A DNA stretch of 64,000 nt, taken from NCBI RefSeq assembly GCF_000969645.2, contig NZ_CP014222.1, positions 682,001 through 746,000 on the forward strand. Reading direction: 5' to 3'. The notes below the pieces were generated by a model. That model searched no databases. It worked only from the letters and a program-made list of their open reading frames with translations, and was not told where the DNA came from. Shown piece after piece: positions 43,977-52,413 of this stretch (positions within the stretch are counted from its first letter, which is position 1; the number at the start of each line of letters is the position of its first letter). The position numbers and the translations under genes are program-made. This DNA comes from Janthinobacterium sp. B9-8 (GTDB lineage Bacteria > Pseudomonadota > Gammaproteobacteria > Burkholderiales > Chitinibacteraceae).

Positions 43977-46607
<2,631 letters not shown>

Positions 46608-46745
46608 GGGCTTTTTTACCTTTTTTAAGGGGCGCTACCGCAGGTGTGTTTTAGCCAAGATTACCTGCCTAGCGCTTTGCAGAAAGCCACTCCTGCAAAA
46701 ACGCTTTGCCCTAAGTACTTTGCTTTAGCTAAGAATTGCTGCGGC

Positions 46746-46815
46746 AATGTTTATTTTATTAAACATTCGTGAATCCAACTTTATACCTTGACGGTGGTGT
46801 TTATTTGGATAAACA
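46746..46815. promoter_or_regulatory. Two TGTTTA-N6-TAAACA operators upstream of the HTH–galU reading frame
   Basis: AATGTTTA-N6-TAAACATT (46746–46767) and TGTTTA-N6-TAAACA (46798–46815) share the same arms and the same 6-bp spacer, with centres 50 bp apart. A TTGACG box (46788–46793) with an AT-rich -10 candidate around 46810 lies between and over the second copy. The second copy ends 8 nt before the HTH start codon, as expected for an autoregulator. Confidence 0.7.
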
Positions 46816-46822
46816 TTACGTC

Positions 46823-47002
46823 ATGCAAAAGTCTGAAGCAATCAAACTGTTTGGCACCCAAACCCGCTTAGCCGATGCGTTAGGGCTTGGGCGCTCTGCT
46901 GTTTCCCAGTGGCCGGGCACGCTCCTTCAGCGCCAGGCGGATCAGGTATTGGGTGCCGCCCTTAGATTAGGTTTACTCTCTACTTCATATCAGGATTCTC
47001 AC
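46823..47002 (+). CDS. P22-Cro-like HTH segment, in frame with galU and without its own stop
   Basis: Sixty codons from the ATG at 46823 encode [31 protein letters not shown] and [15 protein letters not shown], the compact HTH of small P22-Cro/YdaS-like regulators. There is no stop codon before the GalU start at 47003, so translation from here would yield a 349-residue HTH–GalU fusion. The ribosome site at 46823 is poor and the suggested promoter would make the message nearly leaderless. It may have been a separate gene that lost its stop, or a true fusion. Confidence 0.65.
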
Positions 47003-47872
47003 ATGCAAAAAGTACGCAAGGCTGTATTCCCTGTCGCAGGCATGGGCACACGTTTTCTGCCCGCTACCAAGGCTAGCCCAAAAGAAATGATGCCCGTTGT
47101 GGATAAGCCGCTGATTCAGTATGCGGTGGAAGAAGCGCTGGCGGCTGGCATTACCGAAATGATCTTTATTACCGGCCGTAATAAACGCAGCATCGAAGAT
47201 CACTTTGATAAAGCGTATGAATTAGAAGTTGAGCTGGAAGCCAAGAATAAACAAGCGTTGCTGGAAATTCTGCGTGGCATTATTCCAAAGTCAGTCAGCT
47301 GCATTTATATTCGCCAACCAGAGGCACTGGGCCTAGGTCACGCCGTGCTCTGCGCTAAACCTGTAGTTGGGGATGAGCCGTTTGCAGTGATTCTGGCGGA
47401 TGATTTGATTGATGGCGGCGCAACCAGCGAAATGAAACGTATGGTTGATGTATTCAGCGATACGCACTGCTCCATCCTCGGTGTTGAGCAAGTGCCGCAA
47501 CAAGACACCGGCTCTTACGGCATTGTAGAAATTCAAGATGGCAACGGTCGTTTGAAAATCACCAATATCGTCGAAAAACCAAAGCCAGAAGAAGCACCAT
47601 CCAATCTGGCTGTTGTTGGTCGCTATATCTTAACGCCGCGTATTTTCCATCATTTGCAGCATGTGCAGCCCGGTAAGGGCGGTGAAATCCAGCTTACCGA
47701 CGGCATCTTTGCTCTGATGCAAGAACAACACATCCTCGCGCATAAAATCATCGGCACCCGCTACGATTGTGGCTCTAAGCTAGGCTATTTAAAAGCGACA
47801 ATGGCTTATGGCATGAAGCATGGCGAAGTAGGAGAAGAATTCTCGGCTTACGTGAAGGGTCTAAAAGCTTAA
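47003..47872 (+). CDS. galU: UTP–glucose-1-phosphate uridylyltransferase GalU
   Basis: 289 residues from the ATG at 47003, which has AGGA seven bases upstream, giving the usual GalU length. It makes UDP-glucose for surface polysaccharides. [32 protein letters not shown] is split by family motifs: the GMGTRF nucleotide loop and the catalytic [28 protein letters not shown] and GGEIQLTD follow. The reading frame continues upstream into an HTH domain, so a longer isoform is possible. It is followed by a strong terminator. Confidence 0.94.
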
Positions 47873-47893
47873 GTGCTATTTCAATAGGCTTGC

Positions 47894-47929
47894 AAAAAAG
47901 GCGGCACCACTGGTGCCGCCTTTTTTTTT
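47894..47929 (+). terminator. Terminator of galU
   Basis: GGCGGCACCA and TGGTGCCGCC form a near-perfect stem with a CT at the centre, followed by nine T residues. Confidence 0.93.
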
Positions 47930-50254
<2,325 letters not shown>

Positions 50255-50258
<4 letters not shown>

Positions 50259-50962
50259 AGCTTGCGATTATCCCTGCGCGTGGCGGTAGTAAGCGTATCC
50301 CACGTAAAAATATTAAATTATTTCATGGGCAGCCTTTGTTGGCTTATTCCATTGCAGCAGCAAAAGCATCGGGTGAATTTGATCGGATTATTGTAAGTAC
50401 CGACGATACTGAAATTGCATTATTGGCTGAAAAATTGGGTGCAGAGGTCCCTTTTATTCGTCCGGCTCATTTGAGTGGCGATCATACGAGCACGATTGAT
50501 GTCATCCAGCACGCTATCCAAACCTTGCAAGATCAAGGGCATTTTTTTGATTTTGTATGCTGCATTTATGCGACGGCCCCTTTCTTGCGAGCCAGCTTTT
50601 TGAGTCAGGGCGTGCAGTTTTTAATAAATTGCCCTAGTGCTTCTTATGCGTTTTCTGTGACGACCTTTGCTTTTCCGGTACAAAGGGCGATTTGCTTGGA
50701 TGCATCTGGCCGAGTGGGGGCGCTCTACCCAGAGTTTCGCAATACACGTTCGCAAGACTTACCCGAAGCATTGCATGATGCAGGGCAATTTTATTGGGGG
50801 CGTTGTGATGCCTGGCTACGGGGAGATGTTATTTTTTCAGCATGCTCGCTTCCCGTGCGACTTCCTCGACATTTGGTTCAAGATATTGATACACCAGAAG
50901 ACTGGCTAATGGCAGAGCATATGTTTGCAGCGGTTCTCGCTAATGAGGCTGCGCAATCATGA
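50255..50962 (+). CDS. pseF: CMP-pseudaminic acid cytidylyltransferase PseF
   Basis: 235 residues from the ATG at 50255, which overlaps the pseC stop as ATGA; a TTG two codons earlier is less likely. LAIIPARGGSKRIPRKNIK is the CMP-sialate synthetase nucleotide loop, and YATAPFLRA and the C-terminal DIDTPEDWLMAEHMF fit PseF. It activates pseudaminic acid with CTP for transfer. It overlaps pseG–pseH by 4 nt. Confidence 0.94.
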
Positions 50963-52413
50963 AAGTATTAATACGAGCAGACGCCTCGTCTGTCATTGGA
51001 ATCGGGCATGTCATGCGCTGCCTTACCTTGGCCAATGAATTACGTGCTCGTGGCGCTGAAATCGTTTTTGCATGCAGTGAGTTTTCCGGGCATTTAATTG
51101 CATATATTGGTGCTCAAGCTTTTGAGGTCATTCCCCTTGCTGCGCCTTCCTTGCCTCTAAATTGGCAGGCTGATGCGCATTCTTTGCAAGTAAAAATCAC
51201 CCCGGATTTTGATTGGATCATTGTCGATCACTATGGATTAGATAAAGACTGGGAATGCGCAATGCGCCCCTTTACTAAATACATTGCCGTGATCGATGAT
51301 CTTTGCAATCGGCCGCACGATGCAAATTTATTACTCGACCAGAATCTGAGTGCGGAAAGGGACGCATACGAGCAATGGGTACCTACACATTGCCAGTTAT
51401 TATTAGGGCCAAAATATGCTTTGTTGCGGTCTGAGTTTATTGGTGGGCCCATTACAATAAAGCCACAAATTGAACGCATCTTGGTCAATTTTGGTGGAGC
51501 AGATCCAAGTCGAGAAATGTTTAAAGTAATGGAAGCCTTGCAAGAAACGCAGGGTATTCATGTGGATTTTGTGGCGGGTAGAAGTAATCTGGCTTGGCAT
51601 GAATTACAGCAACATATTTTAAGTCAGCCTAATTGGCATTTTTATCATTATGTGGATGATTTTTCGCAGCTTATGCGCCAAGCCGATTTATTTATTGGCG
51701 CAGGAGGAAGCTCCACTTGGGAGCGGGCCGCATTAGGTTTGCCTTCTATTTGTATTGCGGTTGCGGAAAATCAGGTGTCAATTGCGCAAGTGATGCACGC
51801 TAATGGCATGCATTGTTATCTTGGTGATTCGGCGTCTGTAACTGCTGCTGATATCCGGCAGCAGGTGGCCGCGCTAAGTGATTTATCGCAGCGCTTAAGC
51901 TGGGCTAATCAATCATTTACCCTTGTCGATGCTAAAGGTGCTGGTCGAGTCGCCACTGCCCTGCTTCAATCTACTTTGCAAATGCGCAATGTTGTCTTTG
52001 ACGATGCCTCCTTATTATTTACGGCCCGTAATGCGCCTGAAGTCAGAATTTGGTCTTTGGAATCAGACGTGCTGAGCTGGGAGGCGCATTGTGCTTGGTT
52101 GAAGAATAAGTTGAGCAGCTTCGATACCCTATTGTTGATCGGTGAAGCGATTGATGGTCCGGTGGGTATTGTGCGTTTCGATCGATTTATGGACAAACAA
52201 GTTGAAATTTCTATTTATTTATTGCAAGGGCGTTATCAAATGGGTTGGGGCCGTGTTTTATTACGCGCCGCTGAAACTTATTTGATTAAAAATTGGCCAG
52301 ATACCAAATGCATTAGAGCGTTTATTAAAGAAGAGAATAGTGTATCAATCAGAATGTTTGTGGCGGCAGGGTATCAGCTGGAGCAAGGCTATTACCTTCA
52401 TTATATCCAGTAG
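50959..52413 (+). CDS. pseG: Fused PseG hydrolase and PseH-like GNAT acetyltransferase
   Basis: 484 residues combining two Pse enzymes. The first 335 or so are PseG: IRADASSVIGIGHVMRCLTLA binds the UDP-sugar, and DHYGLDKDWE and GAGGSSTWERAALGLPSI are GT-B-like landmarks; it hydrolyses UDP from the diacetamido-altrose. The last 145 are a GNAT domain with VGIVRFDRFMDKQVEISIYL, then QMGWGRVLL (acetyl-CoA loop) and the IRAFIKEENSVSIRMFVAAGYQ ending, as expected for the N-acetyltransferase PseH. No separate pseH is present nearby, which supports a working fusion. The domain boundary is approximate. Confidence 0.92.
   Translation: MKVLIRADASSVIGIGHVMRCLTLANELRARGAEIVFACSEFSGHLIAYIGAQAFEVIPLAAPSLPLNWQADAHSLQVKITPDFDWIIVDHYGLDKDWECAMRPFTKYIAVIDDLCNRPHDANLLLDQNLSAERDAYEQWVPTHCQLLLGPKYALLRSEFIGGPITIKPQIERILVNFGGADPSREMFKVMEALQETQGIHVDFVAGRSNLAWHELQQHILSQPNWHFYHYVDDFSQLMRQADLFIGAGGSSTWERAALGLPSICIAVAENQVSIAQVMHANGMHCYLGDSASVTAADIRQQVAALSDLSQRLSWANQSFTLVDAKGAGRVATALLQSTLQMRNVVFDDASLLFTARNAPEVRIWSLESDVLSWEAHCAWLKNKLSSFDTLLLIGEAIDGPVGIVRFDRFMDKQVEISIYLLQGRYQMGWGRVLLRAAETYLIKNWPDTKCIRAFIKEENSVSIRMFVAAGYQLEQGYYLHYIQ

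Follow-up and report, generated by a model that had tools for sequence, protein, structure and literature searches.

PutA and NadR each hold an enzyme and an HTH in one chain, and the same design is found in enzyme-repressors of the BirA kind, which have HTH-free relatives in the group I ligases. Cro-type repressors are described from prophage switches. In phage PY54, the mRNAs of cI and cro are reported to be leaderless, and Cro is inferred by the authors to act on cI without repressing its own gene (PMC4488713). For CP-933P, the corresponding report gives a leaderless start for PaaR2, describes 18-bp palindromes overlapping the promoters of the region, and states that PaaR2 and the Cro-like YdaS each repress both of these promoters, that of YdaS itself being repressed by YdaS (PMC8630535). 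For the enzyme considered here, a study of Pseudomonas GalU describes a dimer of dimers whose activity needs the tetramer (PMC11005391).

The locus described here lies in a window of 64,000 nucleotides, the whole stretch of Janthinobacterium sp. B9-8 DNA that was analysed, and encodes a Cro-type HTH in frame with GalU (HTH-GalU). Like the BirA kind, HTH-GalU combines an enzyme and an HTH in one chain, has operators predicted at a gene of the pathway it serves, and has HTH-free relatives, namely GalU elsewhere. It differs from that kind in its enzyme, in the phage Cro type of its HTH and in being predicted to regulate its own gene only, and it differs from phage Cro in being joined to a housekeeping enzyme and in occupying the same chromosomal position across ten genera. 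It is not a small free-standing repressor opposite CI, as the HTH is in frame with GalU and ligA lies upstream on the same strand. HTH-GalU would be an unusual enzyme-repressor, likely derived from a captured prophage switch.

HTH and GalU in one reading frame

The frame opens on the forward strand at ATG 46823, runs through 60 codons without a stop to the GalU ATG at 47003 and ends at 47872, with predicted lengths of 349 residues for HTH-GalU and 289 for GalU alone. The sequence-only reading had proposed this in-frame passage from an HTH into GalU; its coordinates and lengths were borne out, and the stop-free frame, one conserved ORF with an enzyme and a DNA-binding domain as in the BirA kind, recurs in 40 of the 43 genomes and 10 of the 11 genera of the family, a term used here for the grouping of the genome collection (NCBI Chitinibacteraceae includes Chitinimonas, whose two loci are without HTH). 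The other possibility it had raised, that an HTH gene had lost its stop, is not supported, and neither is a sequencing error: 40 genomes from 10 genera have the frame open. All 40 fusions have ATG at the HTH start; a GTG at 46769 was considered as the start and rejected, since the DNA before ATG 46823 is not conserved.

The HTH domain (46823..46978, + strand) had been called P22-Cro/YdaS-type. The first half of that name stands, with 34.4 bits for the 60 residues against P22_Cro (PF14549; residues 3-33, Pfam gathering cut-off 30.2), and the second does not, the score against YdaS_toxin (PF15943) being 23.3 bits, under the cut-off of 30. P22_Cro matches exceed the cut-off in 39 of the 43 family genomes, the fused copy of G039 falling just under it (29.5). 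A sequence search of the PDB with the 60 residues returned P22 Cro, 1rzs, as the sole match at E < 0.1 (E 1.3e-4). The predicted fold of the domain (pLDDT 87.4) again gave 1rzs as the best PDB match (E 7.7e-4, TM 0.71, but rmsd 5.4) and as the sole structure match at E <= 0.001, so that the fusion resembles P22 Cro in HTH sequence and, by this model, in a helical fold. The model of full-length HTH-GalU was poor (pLDDT 65.5).

Behind a variable linker of 8 codons (46979..47002, + strand; 8-15 codons in relatives, open in all 32 distinct versions) follows galU (47003..47872, + strand), whose product scores 379 bits against TIGR01099 (equivalog cut-off 326.8) and is predicted by this score to be a UTP-glucose-1-phosphate uridylyltransferase, the enzyme that forms UDP-glucose. 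The fusion thus shares with other GalU the whole catalytic domain, with its own ATG and ribosome site, and departs from them in an N-terminal extension of 60-67 residues with the HTH and in an operator pair of its own. It is the sole close GalU in its genome, five other matches being partial and 26-43% identical, and its nearest named relative, among the best 80 of 576 galU loci, is that of Iodobacter violaceini (97% identical). A likely intrinsic terminator, read from the sequence as a 9-bp GC-rich stem, a loop ACT and a T run, lies at 47900..47929 (+ strand); the stretch folds at -22.4 kcal/mol, and the consensus scan does not list it. The ORF upstream of galU (44217..46607, + strand) we take to be ligA, for NAD-dependent DNA ligase, and those downstream (48115-52413) presumably form a pseudaminic-acid-type sugar cluster with a dehydratase, an aminotransferase, a cytidylyltransferase and a glycosyltransferase-like hydrolase.

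The three fusion-free genomes of the family (G016, G025 and G033) belong to one genus, g9. Their best GalU-like matches are 34-36% identical, with no GalU at E <= 1e-30, and no galU was seen by eye in the approximately 1.0-1.2 kb after the ligA frame. One fusion genome encodes a second GalU of 60% identity (L154, G012:C4:118574-119428), which lacks the HTH and has a GGAGG ribosome site of its own.

Among named genomes, the best 80 of 576 confirmed galU loci comprised 8 with the fusion (Iodobacter, Andreprevotia, Deefgea, Chitinibacter, Chitinolyticbacter and one MAG) and 72 outside, and in none of these 72 did the in-frame peptide upstream of galU, inspected by eye in that frame only, hold an HTH. 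Some matches outside the family seemed to reach the HTH (e.g. Azonexus, Aquitalea, Chitinimonas) and were rejected, having no in-frame HTH peptide. When the HTH was searched against 57 genomes of the order beyond the family, two weak hits resulted (E 0.007 and 0.01). Residues 1-62, searched against proteins of similar total length, yielded 14 clusters among 353 candidates, all 14 carrying both Pfam domains, and a search with the 60 HTH residues alone found three short proteins. One of the short proteins (P0015, Deefgea sp. CFH1-16) corresponds to the beginning of this fusion: a frameshift soon after GalU begins, which may be an assembly error, has led to the HTH being annotated as a hypothetical protein of 83 residues. 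Listings from searches of an open-access paper library showed no description of such a fusion.

A palindrome pair, a predicted promoter and two predicted starts

Two TGTTYA-N6-TRAACA-like palindromes precede the HTH start, both features without strand: site 1, TGTTTATTTTATTAAACA, at 46748..46765 and site 2, TGTTTATTTGGATAAACA, at 46798..46815, each a predicted operator. Site 1 has a counterpart and site 2 is conserved in 40 of 40 fusions, by relaxed site expressions that were derived from the very sequences scored, and the pair would provide operator-like sites at the controlled promoter, as in enzyme-repressors of the BirA kind. The strict pattern found both sites in 27 of the 40, one in 11 and none in 2; it was absent within 400 nt upstream of galU in all 72 outside loci (from the best 80 of 576) and from all 40 control stretches inside galU. 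The spacing of the palindromes is 49 bp in 25 fusions, 50 in 9, 48 in 5 and 51 in 1, a range that does not correspond to an integral number of 10.5-bp turns, and in all 40 site 2 stops 6-8 nt short of the HTH ATG. Between genera, identity is 88 and 89% in the palindrome arms and 27% in both the spacer ahead of the -35 and the DNA upstream of site 1.

The predicted -35 hexamer is TTGACG (46788..46793, + strand), and TTG keeps this distance from site 2 in all 40 fusions, 37 of which have TTGAC. The predicted -10 hexamer, AAACAT (46811..46816, + strand), follows after 17 bp and lies inside the right arm of site 2; a TTG stands 17 bp before an RAACA(T) hexamer in every fusion. As a match to TATAAT this -10 is weak, and the consensus promoter scan of 46600-48000 listed none. 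From the -10 hexamer to the HTH ATG there are 5-7 nt in 40 of 40 fusions. Since the -10 ends so close to the ATG, the transcript is predicted to be leaderless, with its 5' end on the HTH AUG or one or two bases away, which would account for the poor ribosome site of the HTH.

That poor site had been pointed out in the sequence-only reading, together with a good AGGA site at the GalU start, and the comparison of genomes agrees on both counts. At the HTH start a ribosome-site motif is absent from 38 of the 40 fusions, the present gene included, whereas before the GalU start AGGA is found at 46992..46995 (+ strand), and AGGA, GAGG, AAGG or AGGAG occurs 6-10 nt before the GalU ATG in all 40. These conserved signals predict two products, HTH-GalU and plain GalU. 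The predicted operator pair, its fixed spacing, the predicted leaderless start and the likeness to prophage immunity regions had been missed because they are not visible from one genome.

Origin of the cassette

The fusion shares with the prophage Cro/CI switches of PY54 and CP-933P a pair of palindromes of about 18 bp, the nearer one over the cro promoter, and a predicted leaderless cro start; unlike them, it has no adjacent CI gene and no conserved leftward -35. At the mirrored place of site 1, where an intact CI/Cro switch would be expected to have that -35, TTG was found in none of the 38 fusions checked (the expression missed site 2 of the other two). Site 1 and its distance have been kept although this -35 is not conserved, and this speaks for a continuing role of site 1 at galU.

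Free-standing P22_Cro-type genes of the family, the best ten of 15 matches with frames of up to 110 codons, offer a further comparison. The best operator pair is 47-49 bp apart in seven of the ten, a spacing like that of the fusion, with pair scores that no more than 2% of the 60 shuffles per gene reached, and the other three are without such a pair. In the seven paired genes the near operator ends 7-10 nt before the ATG, and each of the seven is divergent from an ORF that carries CI-type domains; five of these ORFs have Peptidase_S24, and two have HTH_3 but no Peptidase_S24. No four-base ribosome-site motif occurs in the last 18 nt before nine of the ten. Two cro-like genes of viral contigs (L165 and L166, upstream of position 2001) also have their ATG close behind a -10-like stretch and lack a clear ribosome site, which would fit a general tendency of this Cro type to start leaderless.

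Outside the family ligA also lies upstream of galU in 69 of the 72 loci, within the fetched DNA (best 80 of 576). At 31 of these 69 loci the two genes are contiguous or overlapping, with a gap of -1 or -4, and at seven they stand about 1.5 kb apart. Of the 40 fusion genomes, 37 showed ligA within the fetched stretch; there it precedes the GalU ATG by 253-1302 bp, and the cassette lies between the two genes. As for a phage source, the HTH matched none of 50,697 phage records, and scans of viral contigs gave 5, 3 and 1 loci, mostly short matches. By its geometry the galU cassette looks like a prophage operator region with its cro and without CI. The cassette probably stems from the immunity region of a prophage, whose operator pair, promoter and cro came to sit between ligA and galU.

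Probable autoregulation and its alternatives

The HTH is under purifying selection as a protein. Over 89 pairs within genera and 691 between them, mean pN/pS is 0.131 and 0.205 for the HTH (residues 1-50), 0.642 and 0.728 for the linker, and 0.041 and 0.147 for GalU. The linkers of 8 to 15 codons vary by whole codons, and none of the 32 distinct versions has an in-frame stop; the +1 frame is likewise stop-free in 32 of 32, and the +2 frame has stops in 11 of 32. With shuffled linkers, one per genus, the stop-free product over ten genera is about 10^-2.3, and the open linker is by itself modest evidence for the fusion.

These values bear on the thought that the HTH is a relic, the cassette giving only a promoter and the cells making essentially plain GalU from the internal ribosome site present in every fusion, with the HTH start lacking such a site in 38 of 40 and the HTH without role. 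We regard this as quite unlikely, since pN/pS is 0.13-0.21 in the HTH and 0.64-0.73 in the adjoining linker, the predicted operators are conserved alongside it and the frame is open in all 40. If the HTH is in use, its control might conceivably reach beyond galU to further sugar or envelope genes. In the genome of Janthinobacterium sp. B9-8, TGTTTATNNNNATAAACA is matched with up to two mismatches at 49 places vs 21 for a reversed control, as a wider regulator might lead one to expect, but the sole other one-mismatch place lies inside a 963-codon ORF. Across the family, TGTTYAWWNNWWTRAACA has 59 matches in the 43 genomes, 3 in the three fusion-free genomes and 56 in the 40 fusion genomes; 51 of the 56 sit at galU, in 35 of the 40 genomes, and the 5 away from galU compare with 6 for the reversed control. 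We consider such a wider role very improbable, and HTH-GalU looks, from the distribution of its sites, like a dedicated autoregulator.

The long form might also act mainly as a repressor, the GalU oligomer serving to dimerise the HTH while plain GalU alone does the chemistry. The two conserved starts would suit such a division of labour, as would the weak dimerisation of P22 Cro, which the PY54 report puts far below that of N15 Cro (PMC4488713). We find it unlikely, because the GalU part of the fusion is complete, scores over the TIGR01099 cut-off and has its residues undisturbed by the fusion, and because oligomers would mix both forms.

Feedback of HTH-GalU on its own promoter, an idea already voiced in the sequence-only reading, remains the best reading of these signals, given the Cro-type domain, the internal GalU start, the poor HTH start and the Cro-type, operator-like promoter region. 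We consider it probable that a captured prophage switch lost CI and had its Cro fused to GalU, and that HTH-GalU represses its own gene while an internal start gives plain GalU. A prophage immunity region would have landed between ligA and galU and lost its CI gene, Cro becoming joined to GalU. The long form would arise by leaderless initiation at the HTH AUG, and the internal ribosome site on the same message would give plain GalU. The GalU oligomer would pair the HTHs as DNA binding requires and could hold both operators at once. Once enough HTH-GalU is present, site 2 and the -10 would be covered and the promoter shut, keeping the enzyme level steady; site 1 would add affinity, and plain GalU from the internal start would dilute the HTHs. 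Unlike the BirA kind, the same gene would make the HTH-free form through its predicted internal start, and ligand control, with UTP, glucose-1-phosphate or UDP-glucose altering DNA binding, is a guess only. There is a bolder version, in which a whole prophage lysis switch has been domesticated as a thermostat for UDP-glucose: a GalU tetramer with Cro heads would clamp both operators of its own leaderless promoter, UTP, glucose-1-phosphate or UDP-glucose would set its grip, and the ratio of leaderless HTH-GalU to plain GalU from the internal start would set the number of heads per tetramer. We regard this as tentative and rather doubtful.

If autoregulation by HTH-GalU is true, a central sugar-nucleotide enzyme would control its own gene via a captured phage repressor domain, kept through ten genera. 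The locus would then be a compact test case for the conversion of a phage immunity switch into a housekeeping regulator, for an enzyme oligomer that takes over the dimerisation of a repressor, and for an isoform device built from a leaderless and an internal start.
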